Shown here in pieces: positions 2,321 to 49,398 of a stretch of DNA of 64,000 bases. This DNA is from Coptis chinensis (Eukaryota > Streptophyta > Magnoliopsida > Ranunculales > Ranunculaceae). The notes under the pieces were generated by a model. The model saw only the letters and a program-made list of their open reading frames with translations. It was not told the origin of the DNA and made no database searches. The stretch spans positions 80,311,501 to 80,375,500 of the forward strand of contig CM027385.1 of the NCBI GenBank assembly GCA_015680905.1. The letters run 5' to 3'. The position numbers and the translations under genes are program-made. Numbering within the stretch: position 1 is the stretch's first letter; every line of letters begins with the position of its first letter.

Positions 2321-5300
2321 TCAAAAAATTACATTCGGGTGATAATATGCGTATATCATTCCAATGATCCATATATACCGGTCAAGGCCAGATCTGAACT
2401 GCCATTCATGTAAGAGTGGTAAGTTGGATTTTGACGGATCCGCGTCTTTGTACCCTGACATAGGAAAGGACATGATTGTTGACAGGCTTAAGAATATAAA
2501 ATAAATGATGCGAAAAACTAAATGCAGAATGTTACTAACCTAAAAGGAACGTCAAAGGACTCCAGAAAATGTCAAAGACACCAGGAACTTCCCAAATCAA
2601 GATGACGACAAAAATACATGAGATAATCTTCACAGCCATCACTGATCTTATCTCATTATACTTGTGAAAAATACCAAGTGATCCATAGACCATAAGAGTG
2701 TAAAGCGTGTGCATAGGGCAGATATAGTATAAAACGTAGTCATTATTAAGAACAATGCAGCAAAATGCTACAAAAAAATTAAGCCGCCACATCATCTGCA
2801 TTCGAACAAAACATTTAAGATTAGTTAACACAAAAGACACATACGATAAAAACATAAATTTTTTCTAACTAGAGATGATAAGAAAGTCACCTGAGCAAAG
2901 CGCCCGACACTAAAATCCTTCCTAATGTAATAGTAGGAGAAGTTCCCAAATCCAGTCATCCACACATATGCTGCAATGAAGACACGTATTGCATTGTATA
3001 TCTCCGTTGCAGCAAAATAGTGGTACATCAAAAATAAGACCTGGTGACATAAAAAAAGAATCAAAATTCTGAACACATGGTCGTCTCAAAGACTCTTTTT
3101 CTCATGATCAAAGATGGTGAAATTTTGGTTAAAGTTCATACCTGCATCCATCCTTTCCACTCCTCAGTTTGATGTCGATTAAGGTACAGTATGGCCTTCC
3201 CAGAGAACATAGACTTGTCATGGTGCTTCTTCAGAGAAGTCATGCACGAAACTATGACGAGAAGCATGTAAAGAAATAGGAAGAGGTCGCGATTGTATTT
3301 CTGTGAAAGGAAACCACATAAAAGATGTTTATAATCAAACTAAATCCGAGCCTAAAATACTTAAAGTAATCAGTGTATATAGCACATAAAGCTTTATCTC
3401 ATCCACGTCTTATTACCTCTAAGACAAGCAAAGTTATCATGTTATACTGAAGCACTTAAATAGAAGTTTATTTTGGAACAGGAACAGCAGCAAAATACAA
3501 ACAAATGATAACTTTATAGCAATCTAAGTATTAGCTTAACTCCATACTCTTACCTCTTTCAGTAGGATGTATTGCACATTCATCCATTTAAGCATTTACG
3601 AATTCACCATATTTAAGTACACGGGTTTCCCAAATAAAATATTCAAAAACTCCGAGGGAAATAAAAATATACTAATGAGTTGTGATGATAGAGATTGGTC
3701 GTCTTGAGTAAAGTCATATGTTGAAAATCTGTATTGTCAGCAGTGTTACTTTGTTCGTGTGAAAGTGAAGACATCCTCAAGGGAACTGAATTTTCAAGGA
3801 GAGTCTCCACCCAGCAATACCTTATTCTCTCATAAGTGACAAACAACAGGTATGAACACTTATCTAGTTATCTATACTTCTCTTGAGTTGCCTCAAACTA
3901 AAAGCTGTTAAATAACCGCGACAGTTGTACAATAGGACTATAGGAGATTAGAGTCAGCTATGCTTATTGAAGGTAAGATGGGTCGCACAGTTACAAACAA
4001 AGAGATCTGCAAAATGCAAATAGAATATGACGCAGGACTTCTCAAGATACAAAAACTTTATTCTTGCTTTGGTATCTTTGACAAATGTATATATATATTT
4101 TGTTTTCCTTGTCTTCTTAATATTATATTCGATGTGGATTTACAAAGTGTTCAGGGAAGTTAATGTACATAATTACCACCTGGTCTTCTGATTTCTTAAA
4201 GCATAGCAGTTATTAAATAAGAACTAATACCATATGAAGATAGAACAATTGGTGACACACCTTAGTAGAATCTGAGAATATGTCTGTGCGATCACAGGTG
4301 TAATAGTAAATCAAAATAGCCCCAATTTCGGACCTACATGACATAGCATGCTTGTGTCAGATGGGTAATCCAATTACCAATTCCGCAATTACTGGTTATG
4401 ACTATTATGTACTTAAGAATGACTCACATGGCTCTCAAGGTTACTCGGTTTTCCAGCAAGAATGACTCTTCCATTGTCAAAAATCTAGAAACACCTCCAC
4501 ATGGTTAAGAACATTTTTAGTAAAATTCAGTAGAATTTTGGATAAATTTTGTCTAACGTGTAGCAACCTGATTAAGTTTGCCTTGATTGTTGAACTTTGA
4601 AACCTTGCAGATGCAGATTTTGTAAGGCCTCCTTCCAGCAAAATAGCTCGATCGTCCTCCTTGATTGTCTCATTTCCCAATTCAACCAAATTGACATCTG
4701 AATGGCTGTACCCAGAAAAATAAGGAGAAAAAGATACTGTTATCAAGAAGTAGATGCAAACCATTTTTCTTCACTAAAAACTAATGTCAATAAATTTTTA
4801 TAACATTTCCAAAACAGCTTACACTTTTGAGGGAGATGAAGACCTTTTATATTCCAAAATCTCAGAATATATCCATGCGACAAATACAGGGGCCACTCCA
4901 AGCAAAAAAGAGACCTACATCATAACCAAATTGTAGGTAAGTCAAAAATAAAAAGTAAATTTTCATCTAAATAACCATTACAAAGAGTTGCAATACATAA
5001 CAAAGGGGATGATTATATGAACTCCACCTTATAGTGATTCCAAAGTTACTCCACCCCTAAACGTGGACTTACAAGATGAATTGAGGGTTGATTTTGGTAG
5101 AGGTATACATCTAATAATGAAGAACACTACCACAAAAATTTAGCTCAATTGAATTTGTTTAACCTTGTCAAAAATCGTTAGGAATGTTATGGAATTATCC
5201 AACTGTCCAGATTATTCTAATTTCAATAGCACATCTTCAAATGAGTTCATTTTTTGTGAGGATGATCTCTACTGTGTAGAGAATATCTCATCTCCACAGA

Positions 5301-6472: not shown

Positions 6473-8170
6473 CTATGAGCGGGTGTTGTTATATTAAATT
6501 ATTTTAAAAAATATTAGCAACTATGTAGAGCTATGAGATAGGAAAATTACATTAATCACTTATTCAAATTTCTTGCATCATTCTCTATAAAAAGAAAGTA
6601 TCAAACCTTGATAAAACTCATCGACCTATTTTTATTGTTAGGTTTAATAATAGAAATTTGATTGAAATTTTGTGAGAATGCCTAATGTAGCGAAGATGAT
6701 ATTGAAGCTACTTGAATAGCAAGACATACCCAATTATAATAAAAGAATTATAATAAACACTACTTAGAATGCAAAACTATACTTGTCGAGACATTTTATT
6801 CTCCCTATATATAATATAACTATGTTTCGGGGTTAGTTCAATGCATTTGCATCAAGTTTCCGATTTTACGTTAATTATTATTTGAGGTTAGTTCAATGTA
6901 GTTGCATCTAGTTTTCGATTTTCCATTAATTATTATTTGAGGTTAATTCAATGTAGTTGTATCAAGTTTCTGATTTTCCGTTAATTATTCATTAAGGTTA
7001 ATTCAGTGCAATTGCATATAGTTTTCAATGTTTCGTTAATTACTCTTTGAGATTAGTTCATTCCATTTGCATCCAGGTTCCAATTTCCCGTTAATTACTC
7101 TTTGACGTTAGTTCAATACATCTACATCCAGTTTCTGATTTTTCGTTAATTATTTTTCGAAGTTAGTTCGCATTTAGCTTCCAATTTCCGGTTATTTATG
7201 ATTTGAGGGTAGTTCGATGCAGTTACATCTGGTTTTCGATATCTAGTTAACTATTCTTTAAGGTTATTTCAATGCATTTAAATCCAGTTTCCGATTTTCT
7301 GTTAAATATTCATCAAGGATATTGTATCTAATTTCTGATTTCCCGGCCTATTAGTTAATCTATGATTTTAGTTTAATGCATTTGCATCTAGTTTCCGATT
7401 TTTCGTTAATTATTGTTTGAGGTTAGTTCAATGTAGTTACATCCAATTTCTGATTTTCCGTTAATTGTTCTTTGAGGTTAGTTCAATACATTTGCAGCAA
7501 GTTTTCGATTTCCCATTAATTATTTTTTTAGGTTTGTTCAATGCAGTTGTATTAAATTTATGATTTCAAGTTAATTATTCATTGAGGTTAGTTAAGTGCA
7601 GTTGCATCCATTTTTCGATGTTTTGTTAATTAGTTTTTAGATTAGTTCATTGCATTTGCATCCAGTTTCCGATTTCTCATTAATAACTCTTTGAGGTTAG
7701 TTCAATACATCTGAATCTAGTTTATGATTTATTGTTAACTATTCTTTGAGGTTATTTCAATACATTTGTACCTAGTTTCTGATTTCCCGCCAATTATTCT
7801 ATGAGGTTAGTTTGATCAATAAAGTTGCATTCGGTTTTTGATTTCATGTTAATTATTTTTTGAGGTTAGTTCAATGCATTTGCATCCATTTTCCGATTAT
7901 CCGTTAATTATTATTTGAGGTTTGTTTGATGCATTTTTGCATACCGTTTTCGATTTCCCGTTAAATATTTTTCAAGAATTTGCATCCAATTTCTAATTTC
8001 CAGTTAGTTATTCTCTGACGTTAGTTTAATGTAGTTGCAGTAGTTTTCGATTTATAGTTAATTACTTTTTGAGTTTAGTTTATCGATGCATAAAGTTTCT
8101 GATTTCCTGTTTATTACTCTTTGAGCTCAGTTAAATGTATTTGAATCCAATTTTCAATTTTCTTTTAATT
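6473..8170. repeat. Higher-order repeat unit 1: leader plus 55-bp minisatellite
   Basis: A leader of about 350 bases (6473-6825) is followed by a minisatellite of about 24 diverged units from about 6831 to 8160. The unit is about 55 bases, built on GAGGTTAGTTCAATGCA, TTTGCATCCAGTTTCCGATT and CCCGTTAATTATTCTTT. GGTTAGTTCAATG recurs near 6831, 6885 and so on at this spacing, with point changes and some truncated units. No coding frame persists. Confidence 0.85.
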
Positions 8171-8361
8171 ATCTAATGTGGTGTGTAATACCAACTTTCT
8201 ACTAATCCATATGTGGTGTCCTTAATTGCAAACATGACATAAAAATAAATTATGTTTGATTTACTATATGGGATCATCAAATATTAGATTATCTAGTTCC
8301 TGATTTTCTGTTAATTATTCTTTAAATTATAGCTGACTCACTATGTGGGATCTTCAAAGAT
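8171..8361. other. Spacer between minisatellite units
   Basis: This stretch has no 55-bp periodicity except one unit-like piece near 8295-8325. It holds short repeats around TATGTGGTGTCC and ATGTGGGATC. It separates the two higher-order units and nothing in it suggests a gene. Confidence 0.5.
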
Positions 8362-9600
8362 TATCTATGAACGGGTCCTATCATATTAATTATTCTGAAA
8401 AATATATGCAACTATATATGTAGAACTATTATATACAAATATTGTATTGATCACTCATCCAAATTTCTTATAACATGAAAACCCCACGTACTCTCTATTA
8501 AAAAAAAAAACTCACTATTAACAAAACCCTTCAACTTTATTTTGTTATTTAATAATATAAGTTTTACTGAAGTTTTGTGAGATTGTCTAATAAGACAAAG
8601 TTCATATTGAAGTTAGTTGAATAGCAAGATGTTCCTAATCATAAGAAAAAAGAGAAGATAAACATCATTTTAAATAAAAAACTATACTTATCGAGACATT
8701 CCTACAACATATGACATAACTATATTTTGAGGTTAGTTCAATGCATTTGTATCAAGTTTCTGATTTTATGTTATTTATTTTTTGAGGTTAGTTCAATGCA
8801 GTTGAATCCAGTTTCTGATTTCTTGTTAATTATTATTTGTAGTTAGTTCAATGCATTTGCATCCAATTTCCTGTTAATTGTTATTCGAGGTCAGTTCAAT
8901 ACATTTGCATCCAGTTTCTGATTTTCCGTTAATCATTTTTTGAGATTAGTTTAATACATTTGCATCCAGTTTCCGATTTCTCATTTTTTATTCGATAAGG
9001 TTGCATTTGCTTCTAGTTTCCGATTTCCCATTAATTATTGTTTGAGGTTAGTTTAATGAATTTCATCCAGTTTCTGATTTTCCATTAATTATTTCTTGAG
9101 GTTAGTTCAATGCATTGCATCCAATTTATTTTTTGAAATTAGTTCAGTGTAGTTGCATCTAGTTTCTGATTTCATGTTAATTATTTTTTAAGATTAGTTT
9201 CACGCATTTGCATCCTGTTTCCAATTTATAGTTAATTTTTTTTAGGTTAGTTCAATACAGTTGCATCTTGTTTTCGGTTTTATTTTAATTTAATATCTGA
9301 GGGTTAGTTCAATGCATTTAAATCCAGTTTCCGATTTCCCGACAATTATTTTTTGATGTTAGTTCGATGTATTTGCATCCAAGTTTTGATTTCTCGTTAA
9401 TTATTCTTTGAGGTTAGTTTAATGCAGTTATATCTATATTCTGATTGTCTATTAATTATTTTTAATATTAGTTTAATGCTTGCATGTGCATCTAATTTTC
9501 GATTTTCCGTTAAATATTATTTGATATTAGTTCGATGCATTTGCATCTAGTTTTCTGTTTCCCGTTAATTTTTCTTTGATGTTAGTTTCATGCAATATTA
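8362..9600. repeat. Higher-order repeat unit 2: leader plus 55-bp minisatellite
   Basis: The leader at 8362-8725 is clearly homologous to 6473-6825: both run from an ACGGGT/GCGGGT motif through GAAATTTTGTGAGA-like and GAATAGCAAGA motifs to CTATACTTxTCGAGACATT. The minisatellite then resumes (about 8728-9600, roughly 16 diverged units). Leader plus array is thus a larger repeat present twice in tandem. Confidence 0.8.
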
Positions 9601-16029: not shown

Positions 16030-16101
<72 letters not shown>

Positions 16102-18479
16102 AATTTCAAAAATATAAAAAAAAAATATAAATTTTGGTTTAGCAAAACTAGGAGAGAAACGTGGGGATAGTTATCAAGGATAACTCACGTATCTAACTTT
16201 TTTTTCTCCCACGTTTTCGAAAGAAAAACCCTAAAAACCCTATTGAAAAAGAAGGAGAAAATAAAATAGAAGAAGAAAAGAGAAAAGGGAAACACAAAGT
16301 ATTGGGCCCACCGCACTATTGATATTCCTAGTTGTTTACATCTTGTAGATTTAATAAGGTGAGTTATATTTATTTATTTTTTTGTTTCCATAGAAATAGG
16401 ATATGTTAGTTGTTATGTGTAATCATATGGATTGTATATTGGGAATATAAAGCCATTAATGAACTGTATAGAGTTTTGTGAAGAAGATGAATAGTTAACA
16501 GTAAACATTATTCCAGATAACTTGTCTGCGCAGTCTTTTAATTCTGTTCTGATGGAGATCTTTTCTTACTCGGATGTCTCTCAAATTTAATCCTTAGTTA
16601 CCTGATACATTTAACTCTGACATATATAAATTTTAGACAAATCCAACGGTGGAGTTTTTGTCGAGGCATGCATAAGGGTGACTGGTTGTAGTATATACGC
16701 CAGAAAACTGCACTGCGCAGTCATACGTTTAGGCGTAGATGAAGGATGATCCAGAACTGGATTATCCTCAAATTTGGGATGTATATTTATAACACACAGT
16801 AGTAATACTCACTAATATTGCAGGCCTATCTGACGGTGGGATGTCAATCGAGGCATTGAAATACGAGACTATTGATTTTTGGATAAAGTTGTGAATGGAA
16901 AATGATTAATTTTATTGAATGGATTGTTGTTTATGATCATTGTGCATGATTTTCTCCTGCGTGAAATTAGTATATTTACATCACAAGTGTAACCTTGGTT
17001 TATTTGAATATTAACATAGAATTGATTGAGCTTGTGCAAACTATCGCTCTTGGGAGTGTGTTATAAGAAATATTGCATGGAAAGTATTGTTGATCGTGGA
17101 AATTTATTTTGTTTTGTATAACATATATACTATATGGATGTGAAATTATTAGAAAACCTATGACACTATTAGAATAAGATGGACATTTCCTATACTCATG
17201 ATGATTACGCATTCCATCTCTAGGAGATGTGACGTGAATGCGGGTAGGATACATTTGATGTTTAGACTCATTCCATCCTTGTGAGACGTGACGTAAATGT
17301 GGGTTTGGATATGTTTTATGACGCATTCCATCCTTATGAGATGTAACGTAAATGCGGGATTAAAATTTATAACAAGGTTCCATATTTTAGGGGAGGAACT
17401 AAATGTCATTTGCCTCACTAAAAGATGTGACGTAAACCTTAGATATGTGGATTCATATGATATTTTATAACACATTACATCCTTGTGAGATGTGACATAA
17501 ATGCGGGATTAAATTTATGGCAAGGTTCCATCTTTTAGGGGAGGAACTAAATGTCATTTGCCTTATTAAGAGATGTGACATAAACCTTGGTTATGTAGAT
17601 TTGCATGATATTGGTATTTCACGCGGTTGTTCACACGTGTTCAAGCGTCCATTGTGTTATTGCATTTCTTGTTGTAGCCCCAACAGAAATGTGAGCACAA
17701 AATGGACTTGGGTGTGAATGAGAGTCATGCTTGGGCAAGGCATGTTCCGGCATGAGTTCAAAGTGCAAAAATGGTAAATGGTCCTTTAGGAAATAGAAAA
17801 GATGTCTAAGATAATTTAATAAATCATGGGGGGGTCTTAATTAAAAAGTATATTAATAATTTATATAATACTAGAGACATTATTTTTATGTGTTATTGTT
17901 ATCATTGAATTAACCCTGTTTTGTAGGAGGGTGGGCTACCTAATCCTTATTGCAGGGATGAAGCCCACTCTAGACTGTTAGGCGCTAAGGTACTGTATAT
18001 TTCTTAAAGTTATTATTTAGATAGTTGGTTACAATGTTATATTAAATTTTATGTATTATATTGGTATGTGCTACATGGATTGCACGTTAAGAGAAACTAA
18101 GTTTCTCTTGTCAGTTGGTGACAAGGGATCGATGTCTCTAACGTAGCCGAATGATGTAGACGTGGTATACGTAACTTCATGGTGATAATGTGTATTGTTA
18201 TATGAACTATCATGAGCATTGCATTTAGGACACTCACACCATCATTTTTAATGCTGACCCCAGTTTGCTTTCCATACGGGGGTATGTTTCTTATGGAACC
18301 TAGACTTTTCGCAGGAACCGCAGCAGTAGTAGCTGTTTGAGTTGGAAAACCGTGGAGCTACAGTTGGAGTAGCTGGCTTTGCTTAGGAGCTGTTTTTTTT
18401 TAGAGATTCTACATTTTTTTATTGTATGTTAGATTTTGAGTTAATAACACTACTAAAAAAATGACATATTATGACGCTT

Positions 18480-18860
18480 GTTTTTTGTCTATCTTGACGG
18501 TTTTGCGAAAAACCGTCAAGATAGGTGTTTTAGTAATATTTTTATGACGGCTATTGCAACATTATGTCGTGTATGACACAAGCGTCACGAAATTATAATA
18601 AATTTATGACGGCTATTACAATATTATGTCATGTATGACACAAGCGTCAAAAAAATATAATAAATTTATGACGGTTGTTACAATATTATGTCGTGTATGA
18701 CACAAGCGTCAAGAAAATATAATAAATTTATGACGGCTGTTGCAACATTATGTCGTGTACGACACAAGCGTCAATAAAATATAATAATTTTATGACGGAT
18801 ATTGCAATATTATGTCGTGTATGACACAAATGTCAAGAAAATATGATGACATTTCTTAAA
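18480..18860 (+). repeat. CACTA subterminal repeats
   Basis: About five tandem units of about 60 bases, each with TTATGACGGCTATTGCAA, ATTATGTCGTGTATGACACA and AGCGTCAA. Such arrays are presumed transposase-binding regions in CACTA elements (family knowledge). Confidence 0.8.
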
Positions 18861-19965
18861 ACAGCCAAATTAAAATAGAATAAACCGTCAACCTTCTTAC
18901 AATTTTTTGGGCACTAGCTTTGGTCCATTTTGGATTTCAATTAAACCGTTAACAATTTAACCAAAAGAAATAATACCAAAATCAATATACTCCTCACTAA
19001 TTATTGAACCGTCAATAGACTCCTCAATTATGGAAACAGCTTTATCACGAGTTTTGACCGTGGGGTTAGGGCTTGACAATACCGTGGAACACTCAACACT
19101 TTGCCTTCCCCCAATCTTAAAAAAAAAAAAAAAAAACTGGACAGTTTCTCCTTCCCCAGCCACCACCTAGCTTCGTCTCCCACCGCCACTTACCTTTTTA
19201 TTCTTTTTCCTTCTATCTCTCACCTCAACAAGGTAAGTAAAGTAAAAATTTTATTTAAAGCACCGATTTTTTTTCTAGGGTTTTATTTTAAAATTGGAAG
19301 AAGCACGTTTTCAATTTTAATTCTTAGAATTTACTGAACGGGAGTTCTCTTATCCAAACGTGATTCTCCCTATTACTTTTGTATCTAGTTCACTGGAATT
19401 TCAGATCTACTGTAACACTCTCGAATTGAATTATCCTTTACTCTTTTCTCCTATTTTTTTTGGGCCTTCAGTTGGTTGTATCATATTGTATGTACACAAG
19501 TTCACAAGCGAAACTAGGATTAAAATTTCTGGTGGTGATAAATTAAATTGTGTTCATTTCGTAATGTCAGATAATAAAATGGTAGGAAATTAAGCAATTG
19601 AGAATGTTTTCTTCCAACTTTTACACAACATGGGAAGACCTTCCCGGTTCATGAATCAAGACGACTTCTCTGGCAGTTTTTGTGTCGCACAAGTATTAAA
19701 TATCTATAGTCTTTGATTGTGCGTAACAATGACAATATGATTTCCTTCCTTTGATCTAATTCTAGCTAAAAGAACACTTCAGACTTCTGAAAGTCGCACT
19801 GCTAAAACAAATGTACTACAAATTTACAATGGCTTGAGATTTCCTTCAAACTCAGAGAAAATAGTATAAGCAGTAACACACTAAAATCAGAAGCTATCCA
19901 CCACTGGCCCTTCAACACAGACGCCTAGCTAGCTATTACAATTCTGTACTTATATTTGGTTTAAT
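18861..19965 (+). other. CACTA interior, possible captured leader DNA
   Basis: No domain recognised. A pyrimidine-rich stretch around 19140-19230 followed by AACAAGGTAAGTAAAG looks like a captured 5' leader with a splice donor. The open frames at 19101-19593 have no recognisable similarity. Confidence 0.35.
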
Positions 19966-20388
19966 ATGGAAGAGGAGGAAGCTGGGAGGGTCAAAGATTT
20001 GAACAGGGAAGAGGTTAGATAATGCAACATTACTTTTTCATTTTTATTCAAGTTATTTATATGATCAGATTTTTGCGTTACCTTGAGTTGTACCCCATGC
20101 TTGTACTTATAAACCGTTTCATTGTCAAAGAAGTATTGGATCATATGTTGGATCATGGATTATGAGTTTGTTTGAAGTATGCAATTAATGTGTGATTGAG
20201 TAGTGAGAATATGTACAATTGATAATCTTTTGTATGTGCGGGGCATTTTCATCATTATTGTTTTATGACTTACGTTCCGAGTCGGGAGTAGTCTATGGAG
20301 ACTTGGGCACATCTCCGTTAATGCCTTTCTATAATACATTCCCTTATGGAGTTAAGGATCCAGAGGATATAATTGGAGCTCTTTCTGC
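19966..20388 (+). pseudogene. Captured KUP/HAK potassium transporter fragment
   Basis: Exon-like 19966-20013 encodes MEEEEAGRVKDLNREE with a GTTAGA donor. A second segment, about 20240-20388, encodes a start like [20 protein letters not shown], then [20 protein letters not shown] and DIIGALS. This matches the N-terminus and first membrane span of KT/HAK/KUP K+ transporters ([13 protein letters not shown] is their hallmark). The acceptor before the second exon is not canonical, and the sequence diverges after GALS, so only about 8 percent of a transporter of roughly 780 residues was captured and it cannot function. Confidence 0.85.
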
Positions 20389-20669
20389 CAGCATACACAC
20401 ACACACTAGCACGTATGTCTCACTCCAGAATTAAGATATCAATCATATATTTACTTTAGGTCATTCCCCGTTATTAAGCAGAATGTGTGTATCAACATAG
20501 TGCTCGAGTCAATGCCACCTCATAGAACAAGATGCCAACCAACCTATCTTCCTTTGGTTCCCTTGTAGTAATTGTTTTTTTGGGTTGTAAAGGACCTGCA
20601 TTTTACTTCTCGTAAATAAATAAGTTTTTTCTAAGCCATTCATTAAAACTCATATTATGTAATCTGCAG

Positions 20670-21838
20670 ATCACACTGGTTAATTTGGCTAAGAAAAATG
20701 AAGGCTTTATTGTTCCTGGGTATACACATATGCAAAGGGCCCAACCGATTCTCTTGCCACTAATCTTGTCTTATGTTGAGCAGGTAAGGGGAGGTTTCTT
20801 TGCCGTGCATATATTATATAATGTGTGGGCATCGATATAGTTTGTAATATGTCGTGAAGTTCTTGGCATTTGTTGCCTTTTTTACTAGTTTAAATGATAC
20901 AACACCCCCCACTCAGACTAGAGTTACACACAAACTCTTATTGTAATTGAGCTTAGTATCTTGCCACTTGTTTTCACTTCCATGGCATTGTCAGTGAATG
21001 TTGGTATTGGTGAGTCGAATTTCCTATATATATTGACATATCGTCCTGTTTTGCATAAAAGTTTGGCGTCTTGCTCTATGATTTCAGTCACATGACCATG
21101 GTACAACAGTCAGACTGGAGAACATTCAGACTCTCTTCACAAATGAGTTTAGCATCTTTTCCACTTGTTTTGAAACAAAATGTGAAATGGGTCCACTTGT
21201 ACGTTCAGGACAGGAGCAAAAAAGATAGCTATACATCGCTAGTTGAAACTAAAATCTTGATTCAAGTACCTTGTTTGTTGTATTCTTTTTAAGGTACCAG
21301 TTGACTTTATCGTTGTCTTTATCAATTAACAATTATTTTGTTTGCTTGAGACTTGAAATGCTTACAAGGAACTAATCCACATAGCTTAGCTAGAACGCTA
21401 GTGTAGTAAATAATTTAATCAATAGCTTCAGATGCTTGCCTCACCACAATGTCGTGCATCCTAGTCGATGAGAGTGTTTCTCATTGCTAAAGTTAACAAG
21501 AAAATGAATGCATGGATCTTGCATTCAGATCTGTCTCTGCCCCTTTTCCTACAACATTCAGTTTTGAAAATGCTTGGAAAATGTGGGGTAGTTTACCATG
21601 TTTTTACAGGTGAGTCAAATGTTGTCTTTTCTCGTTCATTTAGCTTCCCGCGTAGTTAACTTTAGCAATATAAATGTTTTGTAGCTTGAGTGTGATGATG
21701 CCGGATGCCTTACTTAATTGCAGAGGACGCTTTGAACTTTTGCCCTCTAGGTGCATGTGCTCTGGCGGTAATTGGTCTTCCCATTGATAGATTTATGACC
21801 TCCAATGCTCTAGGATTTACCGCCCCAATGAGGAACAG
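20670..21838 (+). pseudogene. Captured argininosuccinate lyase exons
   Basis: Exon 20670-20783 (AG before, GTAAGG after) encodes NEGFIVPGYTHMQRAQPILL within 38 residues ending SYVEQ. Exon 21685-21838 (GTAG before, GTATAT after) encodes the following part, [20 protein letters not shown] then [14 protein letters not shown], with a frameshift and stop in its first 15 codons. Both are consecutive parts of argininosuccinate lyase, the last enzyme of arginine synthesis. The stretch between them is intron-like. The signature region (GSSxMPxKxN) and both ends of the about 470-residue core are absent. Confidence 0.85.
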
Positions 21839-22433
21839 GTATATGCTCACATAGTTTTTCTTCTTGCAATATATTGCTGCTTCTATCAGTTGAATCCACA
21901 AAAGCAAATCAGTGATAAAAGATTACATTAATGAAAAAGGAAACTGTAGCTAACAAGTGTGCCAAGTTCTTTACAAGACAGGGGAGCTAGTCCCAGAATC
22001 TGGGGAGTTCGAAGTTCTTTACAAGACAGATGGGAACTGAGAGCTAACAAGTGTGCCAAGTTATACTCTTTCTACTATATTGGCAGGGGCGGTTGCCAAG
22101 TTATTAGTAGCTAGGCAGCTAAAAGGCAAAGTAGTAGTTCAGGTCAGTCGTCGGGGCATGAAGCTACGTGTTCTATTTGGCGGTCGTGGAGACGAGAGGT
22201 CGAGGCAACTTGTTATATAGGTAGCCGTGCGTGTTAATAGATCTTCTTCTATACTAGTAGTAGCGATGAGTGGGTGAATCGGTTTCTTAGGTTATTAGGC
22301 TTAGTTTTTTATAGAAGGATAAGCCGCGGTTATTGCCGTTTGTCCCAACATCCACCCGAGGTAGGCTACTAACTTGCTCGTTAGAAGTAGTTAACGAACG
22401 GAAATAAGGCCATTTGATGTCTATAAGTGAAGA
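21839..22433 (+). other. Organelle-like stretch A in the CACTA element
   Basis: From about 22060 the base composition shifts to higher GC and a style typical of plant mitochondrial intergenic DNA (for example GGCATGAAGCTACGTG, GGTCGTGGAGACGAGAGG). Nearby is a short local duplication of GCTAACAAGTGTGCCAAGTT (about 21951 and 22043). No gene recognised. The mitochondrial origin is an impression from composition, not a match. Confidence 0.3.
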
Positions 22434-23725
22434 TTGGATGGATGCCCGCTCCTTCAATACAAGCAGAGCCAGCCTTGCACTCCTTCAATAATCGACTCAA
22501 GACGCAAGTATTCATGGTGGTGGGACAGCCATATACCAAAAGAATTCAAAATGGCTTCGGAAAATCTTACGGTATTGCTTTCCCATTACCGCTTTGGCTA
22601 CATTTCGTTTGAGAATGTTGCGTGTTCTCGATCCTTGTTCGTTCATATAGATAAAAAAAAAGTGCATTTGTCTGTTTTTCTAATGAGCGAAAAGTCGCGA
22701 GGTTTTTCCTTGCTAAAGGATTATATGATACAAAGGTTTAGCTCAGCAGAGGTTTCAAATGCATTAGTTTGTCTATCTTTATCCATTGTCGGTCCCTTTC
22801 CATTGCTCTCTCATCAATCGAAAACCGGTTGTTGTGTTCTCAAGTCGTTTTATCATGAAATTGGTACCTCTTGGAAATTTGTATTCTTTTGTATCAAGGT
22901 TCAAAACACACTTTGGTTTTATATACTTGCTCGGTTGCACCATAAAGGCATATCGTGAACTAATCCAATCAAAAACTATAATGGGTTAGTAATGTTCACC
23001 GTAATGATATGGATTTCCTACGATCAATGATGCACGTAATGGATTTCGATCAATGATGTTCACCGTAATGATATGGATTCCAAGGTCAAAGCAATGTTCA
23101 AGCTCATTGAAGAAGATGCGCATTCTTTTGCGAAGCGGGGCAGATGTACTACAAGAAACGCCCGAGCTAATGAAACCGGTCAAGAGTTCTACCGAGCTTA
23201 TCGTGCTTTAGCGTAAAGATACGATCACGCCACAGAGCACTCCGTCGAGCCCATCGGACCATGGTAGAAGCGCTTCCCCAACCAAGTCCCCTTTGTATCG
23301 CCTCGATGATTCACCATCCTTCGCGAATCGAGACTAAACCGCGACACTCGAGATGACACACGCGCCCCGTCGCGTGCATCCCTTGACCCTAATGATTTAC
23401 AAAAGAATGCTTTGGGTCCGTCATCGTCCCAGTTTTACCTCGTTAGTAGAAATGGGGCATACTCGATGAATCGATCACTTTATAAGCAAAAAGGGATTGA
23501 AGCGACTCAATGAGTTGTTTGGATCGGAGAAGGAAGGGGTTAGAAAAGGCCTCCATTTTCATGATGATGATGACGAAAATGGACTCGAGAGCCGTAATCT
23601 CAAGGCAAAGGTAGCCGCAGAGTCGGTAAGAGCAAGAAATGCCGAGGCCCGGGTTCGAGACCCCAAAGGATGCCCTTGCAAAATTAGAAGCGAGAAAAGG
23701 AGTGAAGGGCTTAACAAGCTTAACA
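22434..23725 (+). pseudogene. Captured NET1 (NAB/KIP1-like actin-binding) fragment
   Basis: Segment 22491-22571 encodes SRRKYSWWWDSHIPKEF and SENLT, the start of the NAB actin-binding domain, followed by a GTATTG donor. The stretch to 23072 is intron-like. From 23073 the frame resumes as MDSKVKAMFKLIEEDAHSFA, then pieces of the domain end (EFYRAYRALA, RYDHAT, FPNQVPF) interrupted by small deletions and stops, and then NET1 coil sequence (LKRLNELFGSEKEGVRKGLH, LAKLEA) to about 23725. NET1 proteins link actin to membranes and are about 1700 residues; only the N-terminal part was taken. Indels and stops make it a pseudogene. It has not lost its intron, so it was captured as genomic DNA. Confidence 0.85.
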
Positions 23726-24790
23726 GCTTGCTTTTTCTTGATCTTCCCTTCAGGCTTAACAGGTTGCTGTGGGTTAGCCAATTTCACTCTGTCTCTTCAT
23801 CTTCTTTTTCTTTCTTATCCGAAAGGAGGAAAGGCTTCCCGATGGGGATCCCGAAATGTATTTAGCTCTTTCTTTTGATTCCTCTATGCCTAACAAACTA
23901 GAGCAAACCATTTATAGAAGAATAAAAAAAAGCCTTCTTGCTCTTATCTTCCTCCTTCGTGTAGTAAGGGATTGTAATAGGTAGCTAGCTTGAGTCCGAC
24001 ACATTCTCCCTTCTTGCCGATCCCCGATTCGATCCATTGGACTCTTAGCGGGGAGGGAGATGGCCCCTTGGGGTGCGATCTAGTTCTTGTCCATTTTCCT
24101 TGCTTTGCTTCCTTTCCGTCCTTCTTTCCCGGTGAGTGTAATAAGGCCCGTAAGCTTCTTGTTTTCACTTGCTAGTCTTAGATTGAATCATTCTCATTGC
24201 CTCTATCCCTATGAGTGAGTCATCCTTTCTTCTAATGCTTCCATTGGAAATTCTTTACTCTATCTCTTCTAGTATCGGGTCAGATTTCACTAAAAAGAGT
24301 TATCGCCTCCAGGTTAGGTTTTTTTTCCTTCTTACGGTTAGTTCATCTTTGATATGTCCTTGAGTCCAATGAGGCTAAAAGAGTTAGAAGTCTTAGACTC
24401 CAAGAGCAAGTGGTCTAACCCGAACTACTAGTAACGGATTTGCCCTCGCAATACACGAGTAAGGGAATGGAACTCTTGTTTGAGAACTTTAGCTACGGAC
24501 TTAGGTTAGCTAGCTCTCAGCTTCTCCTATGGCTATTTGGATTAAGGAAGTAGGGTAATGCACATACAAAGAGGCCTAATCTAATAATGGTGGTGAGTCG
24601 AATAGCGGCAGCCGCTCCAAGGCTTTTATGCCACCTAAAGGCCTAAGATAGGAGAATGAGGTTCATGTTTAAGTATCCTCCGGGTTTTGCCTATATTCTT
24701 TGCTTTAGCGATTGAGTTCCCTTTTTCGAGTGGTGGTAGCCTATACCTTTTAGTGCTTCGGCTGGTTAGTACATATCGGATATATCCTAC
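23726..24790 (+). other. Organelle-like stretch B in the CACTA element
   Basis: GC-richer than the surroundings, with many short direct motifs in the style of plant mitochondrial spacers (GATGGCCCCTTGGGGTGCGA, GGCAGCCGCTCCAAGG). No gene could be recognised. Short open frames around 23944-24175 exist on both strands but look like chance. Origin unproven. Confidence 0.3.
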
Positions 24791-25329
24791 AGCTGGTGTA
24801 ATGCGTTATTTGGGGCTTAACCAATATGATTCTCTGTTATAGTTGATTGTATCTCTTTCGTTTAGTAGTTATTGACTTAGTGTGCTAACACATTGTTTGT
24901 GTATTTTTTAATAATCGTAAAAAGTTGTTATATGATTATATTTTTAGTTTATTTATTAAACAAACTAACACATTCTTTTCATATTGTTTTTAGGTTAGAA
25001 GTGAGATAACACGGTAGCTCAATTAAGTTTGTTTGAGATGGATCGGTTGATTAGCAATTTGTTGGATGGGTTATGTAAATTACATTGTTGTTGGATTATG
25101 AGACTTGATTTTGAATCAAGTGCTTAAGTTATTTAATTTTTTTTCCGTTGAATAAATCATGTAATATGAACAAGTTCTTGGAATGATTTATGTTAGTAAT
25201 AAAAGTATGATTCTTGTTTCCGTAATGGACTCTAGGCTCAAAAGTGTCCGAATGTATTGGTGGTGTCGGAATGTATGTATTGGTTTATAGGAATTTTCAG
25301 ATTTAAAAAAAAAAAAAAAAAAAAAAAAG
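24791..25329. other. CACTA interior, AT-rich, no gene
   Basis: Noncoding AT-rich sequence that ends in an A-run (about 25306-25328) before the right subterminal repeats. Nothing recognised. Confidence 0.5.
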
Positions 25330-26129
25330 TTATGACGGCTTCCAAAGAACTGTCGTGTGGCATACCAATTCTTGACAGTTTTTAGTGTTAATTTCTTGAC
25401 GCTTTTGTTTATCAGGATGACACTTAAATAAAAACAATTATAAATGAAGGTTTATTTTTTGACACTTTTTCTAATAAATTATGACGGTTAAGTAAAACAT
25501 GTCATGCAAAAGGATCCATTTATGACGTTTATAAATGAGTTTTTATCATATTAAATTCGAGCTTTGATGTCAGCTTCTCTAGAACCGTCATCAAAATTAT
25601 GACGCTTTTGGTTAACTTTTATGACGGGCTCTATAATGACGGTGGTTTTTTTAATGAAAAAATGTCATTAAACCTGTTTCATGACGGCTAAAAGCCGTCA
25701 TCACAAGTCATTTTTTTAGTAGTGTAAGTTGAGACATTCTCGTTTATCTTTATTTCGGTTTGATGTTCCTCGACATATCAGGATGATTGAAATATGGAGG
25801 TTATTTATTTTGGATTTACGCAAGTATTCTTATTCCAAATTTGTTTTTTTGCTATAATTATATGCATGTTTATCAGAAATGTACGATCTCAATTCACGCC
25901 TCGGGATTTGTAGGATATGGATGATGTGGAAATAGAGTAAATATCTATTTATTGTCGATTCAGATTCTACGAGAAATCAGGGTGTGACAATTTGGTATCA
26001 GAGCATTTAGTTACCCTAGACTAGCTGAGTCTAGGTGATCCTCGAAAATATGGAATATGGATAAAAGATAAAGGAGTGCGTGGAAAAGTTTGAGGATATT
26101 AATTTGGGGTTTTCGTTTAATTGTAGATT

Positions 26130-27056
26130 ATGGATGGAACACGAAACGACAGTGGTAATGGACCATCTGGGAATACTCCCAACCAATTGACACAGAACCA
26201 GTTAGCTCAGTTGTTGCAAGCTATGCAGAATAACTAGTCTGTTCGAGGTGATCCATTTGCTAAGCGTAATAAGTAGTTTGGTACTCTTGGTGGGAAACGA
26301 TTTACTGGTACTGGGAACGCGATAGTAGCAGAGGCTTGGATCTAGAGTTATGAGAATGCTTTTGAGCGCATGCAACTTATTGAGGTGCAAAAACAAGAGT
26401 TGGCTGTTCATCAGCTGGATGACACTGCTAGGTTTTGGTGGAGGGCTCTCGTCCCTAATCTAAACACTAGTACCTTGACTTGAGAGGGCTTCAAGACTAG
26501 ATTTGAGAGCAAGTTTAGTCTTGAAGCAGTAAAAGAGAAGTTGGCTCAATAGTTCTCTGAGTTGATTCAAGACGGAAAGTCTGTGACTAGGTATGTGACC
26601 AAGTTTAATGAGTTATCGAGGTTTTCCCCCCATCTTGTGAATACTGATAAGAGGAAAAACCAAAAGTTCATACGTGGATTAGAGAGTTACTTGGCCAGCA
26701 AATTGATTCCTTTTGACGGGGACACATTTGATCGTGTGTTGGATTTGGCATTGAAATATGAGGAGCATAATGCGGCCCTTAGAGAGTCGAGAGGGAAAAG
26801 GACGTTTGGAGAGCTACCAGCTATTAGCCCTCAACATTTTCGATTACGTACATGCCAAATGATACAGCTCAGAGCGGTCAGTTTCAGAGACCACCACCAT
26901 CGAGGTTTCAGGGAGGTGGAATTAATTCTGGATGTTATGAGTGTGGCCAAACTGATCATCACGCACGTGACGTACTGCCCACAGAGGAGGCAGAACCAGG
27001 GTAGACAAGGACATAACCAAGTCAATAGGCCAAATCCGGGAGGACCAACGCCAGTT
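26130..27056 (+). pseudogene. Degenerate Ty3/gypsy gag
   Basis: The frame opening at 26130 (MDGTRNDSGNGP) contains gag-type sequence: AEAW, RMQLIEVQKQELAVHQLDDT, ARFWWRALVPNL, then FKTRFESKFSLEAVKEK, KSVTRYVTKFNELSRFSPH and KNQKFIRGLESYLASKLIPF. Five in-frame stops (26235, 26274, 26343, 26481, 26550), each one transition away from CAG, CGA or TGG, and a later frameshift kill it. A zinc-knuckle remnant CYECGQTDHHARD lies out of frame near 26937-26975, with its last Cys lost. Gag forms the particle of the element. The open part after 26562 keeps the same frame. Confidence 0.85.
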
Positions 27057-27364
27057 TAGATTGCAACTTTATCAGTGAGAGATCATGTAGAAGGTATCGC
27101 TGACATACAACTTTATAGTTTGCATGTTTTGTTTGATATTAGTTAGTTCCTTTTTAGGTGTGTATATACTGGTATACGCATACAATCTATTACGGTGTTG
27201 CATTAGAAAGGAACAATAGATTCTCTGTGTGTAATAGTAATTATTTGTCTCATTGTGCTTTGGCTTTAAAATAATAATAATAATAATAATAATAAATGAT
27301 AATAAAATAAAAAAGTAAAAAATCCTTTGGATCTTGAAACGGGAATCTTTTTAGGTGTGTATAT
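27057..27364 (+). other. gypsy internal tail
   Basis: About 300 bases between gag and the 3' LTR with no pol sequence, an (AAT)n tract at about 27267-27295 and a purine-richer stretch before the LTR. Absence of pol here is what makes the element non-autonomous. Confidence 0.6.
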
Positions 27365-30049
27365 TGTAAAAATCTCGTTTTTATTTTACTAATTAATTGT
27401 GGTATTATTATTTATTTAGTTTTATTTATTGATATAATTTTTTAAAAATTTCAAAAATATAAAAAATAGAAATTTTGGTTTAGCAAAACTAGGAGAGAAA
27501 CGTGGGATAGTTATCAATTATAACTCACGTATCTAACTTTTTTTTCCCCACGTTTTTGAAAGAAAAACCCTAAAAACCCTACTGAAAAAGAAGGAAAAAA
27601 TAAAAGAGAAGAAGAAAAGAGAAAAGACAAACAAAGTATTGGGCCCACCGCACTATTGATATTACTAGTTGTTTACATCTTGTAGATTTAATAAGGTGAG
27701 TTATATTTAAATTTTTTTTGTTTCCATAGAAATAGGATATGTTGTTTGTTATGTGTGATCATATGGATTGTATATTGGGAGTATAAAGCCATTAATGAAC
27801 TGTATAGAGTTTTGTGAATAAGATGAACAATTAACAGTAAACATTATTCCAGAAAACTTGCCTGCGCAGTCTTTTAATTCTGTTCATATGGAGATCTTTC
27901 CTTACTTGGATGTCTCTCAAATTTAATCCTTAGTTACCTCATACATTGAACTCTGACATATATAAAGTTTAGACAAATCCAACGGTGGAGTTTTTGTCGA
28001 GGCACGCATAAGCATGACTGGTCGTAGTATATACTACGCCAGAAAACTGCACTGCGCAATCATACGTTTAGGCGTAGATGAAGGATGACCCAGTATTGGA
28101 TTGTCCTCAAATTTGAGATGTATATTTATAACACACAGTAGTCATACCCACTAATATTGCAGGCCTATCCGACGGTGGGATGTCAATTGAGGCATTGAGA
28201 TGCAAGACTATTGATTTTTGGATAAAGTTGTGAATGGAAAATGGTTAATTTTATTGAATGGATTGTTGTTTATGATCATTGTGCATGATTTTCTCCTGCA
28301 TGAAATTAGTATATTTACATCACAAGTGTAACCTTGGTTTATTTGAATATTAACATAGAATTGATTGAGCTTGTGTAAACTGTCGCTCTTGGGAGTGTGT
28401 TATAAGAAATATTGCATGGAAAGTATTGTTGATCGTGGAAATTTATTTTGTTTTGTATAACATATATACTATATGGATGTGAAATTATTAGAAAACCTAT
28501 GACACTATCAAAATAAGATGGACATTTCCTATACTCATGATGATTACGCATTCCATCTTTAGGAGATATGACGTGAATGCGAGTAGGATACATTTGATGT
28601 TTAGACGCATTCCATCCTTGTGAGATGTGGCGTAAATGCGGGTTTGGATATGTTTTATGATGCATTCCATCATTGTGAGATGTGATGTAAATGCGGGATT
28701 AAAATTTATAACAAGGTTCCATCTTTTAGGGGAGGAACTAAATGTCCTTTGCCTCACTAAGGGATGTGACATAAACCTTGGATATGTGGATTCATATGAT
28801 ATTTTATGACGCATTCCATCCTTGTGAGATGTGACGTAAATGTGAGATTAAATTTATGGCAAGGTTCCATCTTTTAGGGGAAGAACTAAATGTCCTTTGC
28901 CTCACTAAGAGATGTGACATAAACCTTGGTTATGTGGATTTGCATGATATTGGTATTTCACACGGTTGTTCACCGTGTCCAAGCGGCCGTTGTGTTATTG
29001 CATTTCTAGTTGTAGCCCCAACAAAAATATGAGCATGAAATGGACTTAGGTGTGAATGAGAGTCATGCTTGGGCAGGGCATGTTCTGGCACGAGTTCAAA
29101 GTGCGAAAATGGTAAATGGTCCTTTAGGAAATAGGAAGGATGTCTAAGATAATTTAATAAATCGTGGGGGTGTCTTAATTAAAAAGTATATTAATAATTT
29201 ATATAATACTTAAGACATTATTTTTATGTGTTATTATTATCATTGAATTAACCCTGTTTTGTAAGAGGGTGGGCTACCTAATCCTTATTGCAGGGATGAA
29301 GGCCACTTTAGACTGTTAGGCGCTAAGGTACTGTATACTTCTTGAAGTTATTATTTAGATAGTTGGTTACAATGTTATATTAAATTTTATGTATTATATT
29401 GGTATGTGCTACATGGATTGCACGTTAAGAGAAACTAAGTTTCTCTTGTCAGTTAGTGACAAGGGATCGATGTCTCTAACGCAGCCGAATGATGTAGACG
29501 TGGTATACGTAACTTCATGGTGATAATGTGTATTGTTATGAACTATCATGAGCATTGTATTTAGGACACTCACACCAGCATTTTTAATACTGACCCCAGT
29601 TTGCTTTGCATTCGGGGGTATGTTCCTTATAAAACCTAGACTTTTCGCAGGAACCGCAACAGTAGTAGCTGTTTGAGTTGAAAAACCGTGGAGCTACAGT
29701 TGGAATAGCTGGCTTTGCTTAGGAGTTGTTTTTTTTATAAAGATTCTACCTTTTTTTTTTTTGTATGTTGGATTTTGAGTTAATAAGTTGAGACGTTCTC
29801 GTTTATCTTTATTTTGGTTTGATGTTCTTCGACATATCAGGATGATTAAAATATGGAGGTTATTCATTTTAGATTTATGCAAGTATTCTTATTCTAATAT
29901 TTGTTTTTTTGCTGTAATTATATGCCTGTTTATCAGAAATATATGATATCGGTTCACGCCTCGGGATTTGTAGGATTTGGATGACGTAGAAGTAGAGTAA
30001 ATATCTATTTATTGTTGATTTAGATTCTATGAAAAATTGGGGTGTGACA
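27365..30049 (+). repeat. 3' LTR of the gypsy element (intact)
   Basis: 2685 bases, starts TGTAAAAATC, ends GGTGTGACA and is followed by TCAGC. It is collinear with both parts of the 5' LTR and has TTAATAAGTTGAG where the CACTA element sits in the other LTR. Open frames at 28339-28814 (minus) are matched by similar frames at 17000-17475 in the 5' LTR; these come from the tandem LTR motifs and are not genes. Confidence 0.85.
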
Positions 30050-46651: not shown

Positions 46652-47709
46652 GCACCTTTAGTCCCAGGAGAATGAATTTTGGAATCTTATAAATTATAGT
46701 TCTAAATTATACAAAGCAGTAAAAAGATTTGAAATGTTCAAAAAGTGTCGATTGTAATCATAATATCTAATCTATGTTAAATAGAGTTAATTTATTGATC
46801 CGATGGATCAGGACACCCTTAATTTGTTTACCCCTCTTTGGTTCCACCCTGTTTTTTAGTAGCTGATACTATTTTTGACTACGGCATCGAACGCTGGTCT
46901 AGTGATTTAGGTCATCGTAAGTGATATATAAGTACATAATCGAACAAGTGTGTACGTTATGTATAGCAGTTTATGATATTCTAGTTAAGATTAAGAATCA
47001 CCGATTCATATAATTAAAGTGCACTTGCAACTATAAAACAGTTGTGGACTCCCCTCATTTGACTCTGTATATATGCTAGGGCAGCATAACTAAATATGGT
47101 GTGTGCAGAGGTTGTCAATCATCTTATAAGAGTTACCCAATGATCCTAAGCTAGATCAAAATTTTAAAATCTTAACCTATTTTAGGAGAATACTTTGCAC
47201 ATAGGTGAAAGCAGAACAGCACCACCCAAGGCATTAGGTTGTTTCAATTGGACCTTCAGAGCTACTGCTCCACCCATAGAGTACGTGCGCAAACAAAAAG
47301 CTTGGGAGGCTTTGTTACTTCTTTAAAACTTGTTTATCAGATTATTAATATTTCCATGCTAAAAGACCTTTTGATTAACAAACACTTAAGCACAAAAACC
47401 CTATTACATATTGGGCTTGACAGGCCTTCATACAGTTTTTATAATATTGGAAACAAGAAACCTTTTTAGAATTGGATACACAGACCTACTAATGATAACC
47501 ATTGATTTCTCATTCCCACTTCCACTCTACCTCTCTTTTACGCTTATAGGAAAGAATATTTTCTCATCGGTAAAAGTTTAATATTTTTTTGGTTATTACT
47601 CACTCGTTCATAGATCAAAAAATTTCTTTCACATTCTTTCACTCGTCGGTTTCATTAGTTTTTATAAGACCGAGTTAGAAACCATTCTTATCTCTTGAAT
47701 ATTTGCGCC
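46652..47709. other. Spacer between F-box units, end of unit A
   Basis: 46800-47370 is collinear with 49906-50430 (same motifs GGAGAATACTTTGCACATAG, GCAGAACAGCACCA). From about 47377 the sequence matches the upstream region of copy A, so one tandem unit ends and the next begins near 47377. The promoter and leader of the copy B gene presumably lie in 47377-47709. No other gene. Confidence 0.6.
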
Positions 47710-49398
47710 ATGGATACAAACAGCAAGTTACCAAGACTGATGCCTCAAGACACACAAAATAAATCCCAGATTGTTTATCATAAAACAACCATTGTCGATC
47801 TTCCTGAATCCATAATCCATTACATTGTTTCTTTCCTTTCTTTGAAAGACATTGTGCGAATGAGCACTTCTTTGAGGACATGGAGATACTTATGTTACAC
47901 TATCCCTTACTTGAAACTCAACATAGATGAGGAAGACACCAAAAGTGGTAGAGTTCTGTTAGCCTTTGTGGAAAGATTGTTTAGTCTTCGTCGTGGACTA
48001 ACCTTAAAACGCTTTGCATTAAAGTGTGGACTTCACCTTGTTTCAGCATATCGACTTGAGACATGGATTCTTAACGCGATGAAGTTAAAGGTTGAAGAAC
48101 TTGTGCTGAATATTGGTTTTGTTCAAAACCTTCCCATCGGCATCTTCACTCTTCCATCACTAAGGATATTAAAGTTGAATATGAATTACCGATCATCACT
48201 TAAACTTCCTTGTTGCCTGAACCTGACCAATCTTGAAAGCTTGTCTTTGATAGCAGTTAATCTGCCTAATGATCCTTTAAGCGCATTGGTTCTAGCCCGA
48301 TGTCCTTCTCTGAAAACCTTAACTCTGAACTATTGTTTTGGGTACAAAACACTCAATGTCACAAGTTGGTCACTTGAAACATTAAATATTATGGATACGA
48401 ATATGGATACGAATGCTTTGCAGTTTCTCATTGTTTCTTGTGACAAACTTAAGACCCTATACGTCAGCAACTTTGCCTCTCCACTTATTCTGGAATCATT
48501 TAATCTTTCTGCCCCTAATCTCCAATCCTTTACATGGTTTGGTGGTGTTATACATCAATTTTCTTTGGGCCCTCTCACATCTTTACAGGTGGCAAATATT
48601 ACACTTACATGTCCTAGTAACAATGCGAATCGTAACCATGAGGCTCTACATGTTTTTGGGGCTGCGCTTCTTCCTTGTGTAGATCACGCCAGAGTTTTAA
48701 ACATATGCAGTGCATCTTTGACGGTATTTTACATAGTTTTATTTCATTTGTTCTCATTCATGCTGTTAACTATATTTTTCTGTCTTTGGATGTCATTACC
48801 ACATTACTTAGCACACCTAATATGGTTGATTTTTTGGGCTGTGTAGTTTCTAGTGGAAATACTGAGAACAAATGTTTCCTTTTCATTATGTAATCTAGAG
48901 GACTTGAACTTGTCTATTAGATTTTTGTGCGACGCTGATGTCTACGCAATCATGCTTTTGCTTTTGCGCAATCCTCATATGAAGAGGCTAGTCATCAAGC
49001 AACTGGAACACGTTAATCTGGATGTAGGTATTCTATTAATCCATTTTGTGAAAACTCGCATGCATCTTTTAATTCATATTGAACTAATATTATTGTTTGT
49101 TTACATTTTTCAGGAGAGGCGTCCTTATAACAAAATTATAGTCAAAGAAATGGAGGAGATGCGAAATATAGAGTTTGTTCATCATCTGAAGACATTGGAG
49201 ATGAGCTTGAGCTTGTTGGGTACTGAGGATGATAACCTGAAACTGCTGAAGTTTTTCATCAAGAATGCAAAAGCATTGGAGAAAATAGTAATTCTATTCT
49301 CACCTTCAGTCTCTGAAATGGCAAAAAGGATTGGTCAGAACCTACAAAGTCTCCAGAGGCCATCACCATATGCTGCAATATATGTCTTACCATGCTAA
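47710..49398 (+). CDS. F-box/FBD/LRR protein, copy B (intact)
   Basis: Three exons, 47710-48723, 48847-49023 and 49114-49398, join without frame loss to 491 residues (introns start GTATTT and GTAGGT, end TGTAG and TTTCAG). The start at 47710 lies in GCCATGG and matches copy A (MDTNSKLPRLMPQDTQNK). An F-box is at about residues 30-70 (VDLPESIIHYIVSFLSLKDI, SLRTWRYLC). Leucine-rich repeats follow (IFTLPSLRILKLNMNYRSSL, NLESLSLIAVNLPN), and exons 2-3 give a C-terminal FBD-type region (RRPYNKIIVKEMEEMRNIEF, DDNLKLLKFFIKNAKALEKI). Such proteins are expected substrate receptors of SCF ubiquitin ligases; the substrate is unknown. It is a member of a large, fast-evolving dicot family. Confidence 0.9.

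Follow-up and report, generated by a model that had tools for sequence, protein, structure and literature searches.

The window analysed here is a 64,000-nucleotide stretch of the Coptis chinensis genome (C9:80311501-80375500; C with a number denotes a contig of the assembly, and decimal positions are in Mb). It contains a CACTA transposon of 7,277 bp at 18448-25724, whose ends match each other and are flanked by a duplicated TAA target. Within the element lie, in this order and all on the + strand, pieces of a KUP/HAK potassium transporter gene, an argininosuccinate lyase (ASL) gene and a NET1 gene, with introns retained. The 935.6-Mb assembly of the same genome was searched for parent genes and further copies. 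The features of the element and its site, in window coordinates, are as follows.

18445..18447, + strand: target site duplication (TSD) TAA, left copy
18448..18476, + strand: 5' terminal inverted repeat (TIR), the 29-mer pattern
18534..18844, + strand: five subterminal 62-bp direct repeats
19454..19909, + strand: segment with a further match at C1:16949204-16949652 (91%), outside the KUP/ASL copies; candidate fourth captured piece
20119..20385, + strand: KUP/HAK potassium transporter fragment, intron and start of a K_trans exon; may extend further 5'
20386..20430: filler of 45 bp between KUP and ASL, with no match in the parent stretches compared
20431..21943, + strand: ASL genomic fragment, intron to intron
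21944..21980: junction filler behind ASL, including 21 bp (21948-21968) that exactly repeat 22042-22062
21980..22454: older family sequence S4, ending in the 52-bp stretch (22403-22454) read as the target duplicated at NET1 capture
22449..22488: templated filler, of which 22449-22470 is NET1 exon-2 sequence
22489..23701, + strand: NET1 genomic fragment, exon 1, intron (partly deleted) and exon 2
23740..24850: older family sequence S6; neither strand gave a Pfam match at E 0.01
25696..25724, - strand: 3' TIR, matching the 5' end inverted
25725..25727, + strand: TSD TAA, right copy
27438..30049, + strand: other long terminal repeat (LTR) of the host retroelement, holding the empty site (c. 29780)

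With up to 3 mismatches allowed, CACTACTAAAAAAATGAC matched the window just twice, at 18448 (+) and 25724 (-), both exact and inverted relative to each other; the mean expected by chance was 0.25, and two matches were reached in 0 of 100 shuffles. Three hallmarks of the CACTA superfamily were found: the TIR begins with CACTA, the TSD is of 3 bp (TAA in the window, with an empty site, and ATG in a sister copy on C1), and five subterminal 62-bp units stand behind the 5' end. The element was inserted in one LTR of a decayed retroelement whose two LTRs are 93.4% identical. The other LTR carries the empty site GAGTTAATAAGTTGAG at ~29780 with a single TAA, and the filled LTR has TAA on either side of the element. 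Because the other LTR keeps this uninterrupted site, both ends belong to one insertion, which rules out that they come from two different elements, an outcome the sequence-only reading of this DNA had named as fatal to its proposal. Inverted repeats inside the element were short, the longest being 26 nt among the 25 of 36 pairs listed. The host retroelement (16093-30049) has 2.6-kb LTRs with just c. 1.4 kb between them, including a gag remnant (Retrotrans_gag, 1.3e-5).

The sequence-only reading had proposed that one non-autonomous CACTA element carries fragments of three unrelated host genes in the same orientation and in succession, and domain matches bore this out. The KUP piece matched K_trans (E 2.2e-5; 23.6 bits, slightly below the Pfam cut-off of 24.8) and, in PDB, best of all potassium transporter 5 (2.2e-8). 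The ASL piece, with two exons, matched Lyase_1 (3.1e-6) and had plant argininosuccinate lyase as its best PDB matches (5.6e-12 and 1.6e-14). The NET1 piece matched KIP1 (4.5e-10); the name NET1 is given after the KIP1-like NET proteins. The KIP1 frame of the window copy is broken, with 1 TAA.

The parent of the ASL piece was a contiguous stretch at C4:8634763-8636001, which aligned at 94% over 1,546 columns through exons and introns alike, in support of capture at the DNA level. The NET1 parent was located at C2:82610571-82614224, where two stretches matched KIP1 and were followed by a long open frame, and the closest K_trans gene to the KUP piece was at C9:71273579 (874-aa frame). The parents or closest relatives thus lie at C9:71.27, C4:8.63 and C2:82.61 Mb, on three chromosome-sized contigs, and the three pieces were not found adjacent in a non-transposon locus. 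The expectation that the pieces start or end in introns held for ASL, at both limits, but not for NET1, which runs from exon 1 to exon 2, nor for KUP, whose 3' limit is inside an exon and whose 5' limit was not reached. Each of the 8 full copies compared (2 partial ones were excluded) differed from the ASL parent by the same 23 substitutions and one 23-bp deletion, indicating that ASL was captured once and then multiplied. A NET-family gene at C4:8716550 lies ~80 kb from the ASL parent; the NET1 cargo is closer to the C2 gene.

A KUP query matched 17 places in the genome, of which 13 also had an ASL match (the window and 12 others), the remaining 4 being K_trans genes. The element therefore has KUP and ASL matches in common with at least 12 other loci, which does not support the idea of a single event: it belongs to a multiplied family. 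NET1 sequence was matched at 7 of the 12 other KUP-ASL loci, over 204 bp only at C6:31.42. The sister copy at C1:62.74 is 95% identical end to end and has its own TSD, ATG; an inverted family 5' end is found 118 bp upstream of it (177-577 of its stretch). The 29-base end pattern, with up to 3 mismatches, gave 515 genome matches (260 and 255 by strand) and a reversed-pattern control gave 0. Both kinds of end are included in this count, since the 3' end of the element itself is 3 mismatches away from the pattern; the first 100 were listed, all exact 5' ends. Three sisters with KUP, ASL and NET1 matches (C9:13.16, C9:48.47 and C9:74.38) have in common c. 1.3 kb replacing 23386-24399, which in the C9:74.38 copy (its 2452-3948) contained a cytochrome P450 fragment (E 5.3e-65), and a relative at C1:56.34 (its c. 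1170-1401) carried a ribosomal L35Ae fragment (8.7e-14) beside S6. Another repeat with a NET1-like exon 1 was present in at least 3 copies (C3:71.3, C7:70.1 and C9:51.6 Mb) with ~1.2 kb or more of flank in common, and there may have been more than one acquisition of NET1-type sequence.

The capture of NET1 left a scar. The longer parental intron was kept in four copies (C5:3.67, C1:89.95, C6:53.07 and C2:39.38), in three of which the 52-bp motif (22403-22454) flanks NET1 on both sides, the left motif of the C6 copy agreeing at 44/52 bases; the fourth is cut short, and the right side of NET1 is absent. The filler at 22449-22470 agreed with NET1 parent positions 2162-2183 at 21/22 bases in the window and, by reading the printed lines, at 22/22 in the C9:74.38 copy. 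A 25-base stretch of filler tested against the NET1 parent scored 21/25, and 500 shuffles reached at most 17. The motif CTCCTTCAATA occurs at the start of the filler and again ahead of the exon-1 sequence, with a one-change version at the right end of NET1 in the C5 copy.

The expected form of NET1-free elements, with the 52-bp motif once and running straight on, was set from the filled copies before the uninterrupted site was searched for. The right flank of the C5 long-intron copy served as query; 40 of 90 candidates were scored and gave 41 rows, 26 of them starting at the motif. S4 runs on with no NET1 between in 13 of the 26, and in 8 the motif stands 15 bp behind a NET1 end. Judged by their sequences, the 13 uninterrupted and 8 NET1-bearing loci are a before-and-after pair for one capture. 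The 52-bp duplication and the NET1-templated filler point to template-switching break repair, and not to fusion of neighbouring insertions, as the probable origin of the junctions. Patch-like repair of staggered breaks gives such duplications in plants. The repeated 21 bp at the ASL border fit the same kind of repair.

Taken together, we give a probability of about 0.85 to the reading that the element is a non-autonomous member of a CACTA lineage, keeping mobile ends (TIRs, 62-bp repeats and 3' half) and carrying host gene passengers acquired by break repair and then multiplied. A double-strand break inside an element would have been repaired by copying c. 2 kb of NET1, short template switches producing the 52-bp target duplication and the NET1-templated filler that are seen in the copies. 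KUP and ASL would later have been placed in the 5' half of a sub-lineage, an order suggested by copy counts, by a mechanism that may have been similar. The resulting chimera was then copied to at least 13 loci, presumably moved by the transposase of relatives that share its ends. The copy in the window is most plausibly a transposon that carries passengers and has no demonstrated host function.

Copy numbers fell from the older family sequences to the cargo: S6 had 105 candidates genome-wide (40 scored) and S4 had 53 (40 scored), NET1 gave 51 pieces from 40 scored of 66 candidates, and KUP with ASL occurred at 13 loci. These falling counts suggest stepwise capture, NET1 probably first and KUP and ASL later in a sub-lineage, with P450 in three sister copies. 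Divergences for dating were taken at positions away from parental CG/CHG sites. Kimura two-parameter distances averaged 0.025 from the ASL parent to 8 copies and 0.0094 between copies, and were 0.0033 between the window copy and its nearest sister and 0.048 for the host LTR pair; with the sites masked in every row, the ASL values were 0.0185 (parent-copy) and 0.0043 (copy-copy). For NET1, by segment and with 19 copies each, mean parent-copy distances were 0.016-0.034 and mean copy-copy distances 0.021-0.042. At a rate of 1.3e-8 per site per year, as for rice LTRs, the ages would be about 1.0 (ASL parent-copy), 0.4 (copy-copy), 0.1 (window-sister) and 1.9 (LTR pair) million years.

In the copies of the element, small indels and multi-base changes were clustered around CAG/CTG, CCG and CGC sites, and they differed from copy to copy. 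In pairs of CACTA elements these sites were enriched over background among clustered edits (CAG/CTG 3.0x, CCG 2.7x, CGC 4.2x), other CG trinucleotides also being raised; by segment, CAG was raised in 7 of 7, whereas the 5' segment showed no rise for CCG. Of 37 CAG/CTG sites in the neighbouring LTR pair, none was clustered, the CCG value there being 0.125, and 7 repeat pairs within the window gave ratios of 1.0 (CAG), 2.1 (CCG) and 0.8 (CGC). The second repeat with a NET1-like exon 1 showed clustering too (2.5, 1.9 and 5.1), which counts against a family-specific cause, and another 41 flank pairs, of unassigned family, gave 5.2, 4.4 and 5.0. Indel states near these sites were not significantly related to copy relatedness in Mantel tests of 6 of 6 segments, with low power, the far-site control being significant in 1 of 6. 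The edit load near CHG increased with copy divergence in 2 of 5 segments. The clustered changes are either consensus error at putatively methylated sites or real scars, and both explanations remain. Since consensus error is possible at CHG/CG sites, a frameshift in the cargo should be given no biological meaning before reads are inspected; decay of the cargo exons by ordinary mutation was set aside as a measure because of the clustered edits.

The element has the features of a Pack-CACTA, with no transposase of its own in the stretches scanned, host gene DNA, and multiplication as a unit. No Transposase_21 match was obtained in 10 pieces from 20207-24839, nor, with stops read as X, in 18950-20020 (+ strand only) and in 21944-22488 and 23702-24852 (both strands). 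Elsewhere in the genome, this TnpD-type domain was found near family ends or NET1 cargo at three loci. At C1:89944785 it lies 4.4 kb inside an exact family 5' end of the same strand, and at C1:76282204 the distance to such an end is 4.6 kb. An S4-NET1-S6 block, again on the same strand, is located 8.5 kb downstream of the domain at C1:89.94 and 8.2 kb downstream of that at C5:1.914. Read from this arrangement, the simplest course of events would be entry of NET1 into an element with a transposase, followed in the window lineage by replacement of the 5' half with KUP and ASL.

Several results weigh against this reconstruction of stepwise capture by break repair. The 52-bp motif was doubled in just 3 of the 20 loci that show it; 16 further motif-bearing loci, the window included, had one copy only, and a single motif at NET1-bearing loci requires later loss of the right copy. 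Among the 26 motif rows, 4 fitted neither the interrupted nor the uninterrupted state, and 1, at the KUP-ASL locus at C6:31.42, had the left motif alone. The assembled NET1 parent itself has one frame break near its position 2000, and the 45-bp filler between KUP and ASL had no identified template in the parent stretches compared. The closest KUP gene was at a distance of K = 0.10 away from CG/CHG sites, against 2.5% for ASL, and the KUP donor may be a lost or unlisted paralogue of the C9:71273579 gene. The putative link to a transposase comes from domain matches near ends or NET1 cargo among 150 scored of 2,715 Transposase_21 candidates: the domains at C1:89.94 and C5:1.91 each have a stop, 22 kb separate the one at C1:76.28 from its NET1 piece, and beside C5:1.91 no exact 5' end was present among the 100 ends listed.

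In the model published for Pack-CACTAs of Arabidopsis, as given in passages of PMC8903248 and PMC13317346, two CACTA insertions lying close together fuse, and their outer ends mobilise the DNA between them. For ASL and KUP it keeps some ground, a family 5' end at C4:8610018 lying ~25 kb from the ASL parent; by our own estimate, such proximity has a chance of roughly 3% if the 515 ends are evenly spread, and this end comes from the 100 listed. For NET1, the cargo was not found between two insertions with their inner ends lost, but within S4-S6 sequence that is contiguous at the 13 NET1-free loci. Fusion predicts neither the internal 52-bp duplication of the long-intron copies nor a filler templated by NET1, and the donors are on three contigs. 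It is an unlikely account of the element as a whole.

From the sequence, an influence of the chimera on the genes of origin had also been suggested, by way of small RNAs or of a chimeric transcript. The copies are several and young, and a soybean CACTA with five gene pieces gives chimeric spliced transcripts when within a gene, according to passages of PMC1947982. However, each of the three pieces lies in sense, and with inverted repeats this short an antisense or read-through transcript would be needed; the NET1 frame of the window copy is also broken by the KIP1 stop. Such a role would seem very improbable. Misassembly of the pieces, to which the indels at CHG/CG sites lend something as possible consensus error with no detectable link to copy relatedness, has a negligible probability and is refuted for the overall structure by the recurrence of the joins at other chromosomal loci, by the separate TSD of the C1 sister and by the clean empty site in the window.

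A mitochondrial origin of the G+C-richer stretches at 22.0-22.4 and 23.7-24.8 kb, considered from their composition, was not supported, without being disproved, as both are dispersed family sequence on chromosome-sized contigs; neither had an Rfam match at the gathering score or a Pfam match. Matches to PF07456, PF23085 and PF13263 in pieces of the element, and to Peptidase_C48 (E 0.0075) in a relative, were all below cut-off. Elsewhere in the window, an F-box/LRR frame followed by an FBD-domain frame (47695-49398) is possibly one F-box gene split by a frame break, and a 55-bp tandem repeat forms long arrays at 6831-9594.

Among known systems, and going by the passages of each paper drawn on, soybean Tgm-Express1 (Zabala and Vodkin 2007, PMC1947982) is a CACTA of similar size (5.7 kb) with exons and introns of five unrelated host genes; it is described within one gene and its chimeric transcripts were demonstrated, whereas the present family has dispersed copies and shows one capture in both states. 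The Pack-CACTAs of Arabidopsis and maize (PMC8903248) likewise combine CACTA ends with host coding DNA, but the model put forward for them is neighbour fusion, unlike the template-switching repair to which the NET1 junctions point. The gap-filling and FoSTeST models for animal Pack-TIRs (PMC8277862) resemble our reading in that capture occurs by template switching with microhomology and is then amplified by transposition; those are animal TIR elements, with one multicopy junction bearing a 45-bp de novo insertion, whereas the filler here was traced to the captured gene. CACTA-like elements of Chenopodium (PMC8978399) also hold host gene fragments, in their 5' region; they differ in having recognised transposase-associated domains, and those passages describe no before-and-after site of capture.

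How DNA transposons capture pieces of unlinked genes is an unsettled question, and an alternative, as yet undiscovered capture mechanism was considered possible in passages of a 2026 review (PMC13317346). It is conceivable, if quite improbable, that breaks within this CACTA lineage recur at methylated CHG sites, that real scars, differing between copies, cluster there, and that repair occasionally copies in a gene; if true, gene capture would be a rare large outcome of routine break-and-repair tied to the element's methylation or active demethylation. Pack-CACTAs with several host genes are already known, and the value of the present family is the before-and-after view of one capture, readable in both states within one genome. 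The family also hints at the sequence of captures, with NET1 probably first, then ASL and KUP, and P450 in three sisters, by which the process may be followed step by step.

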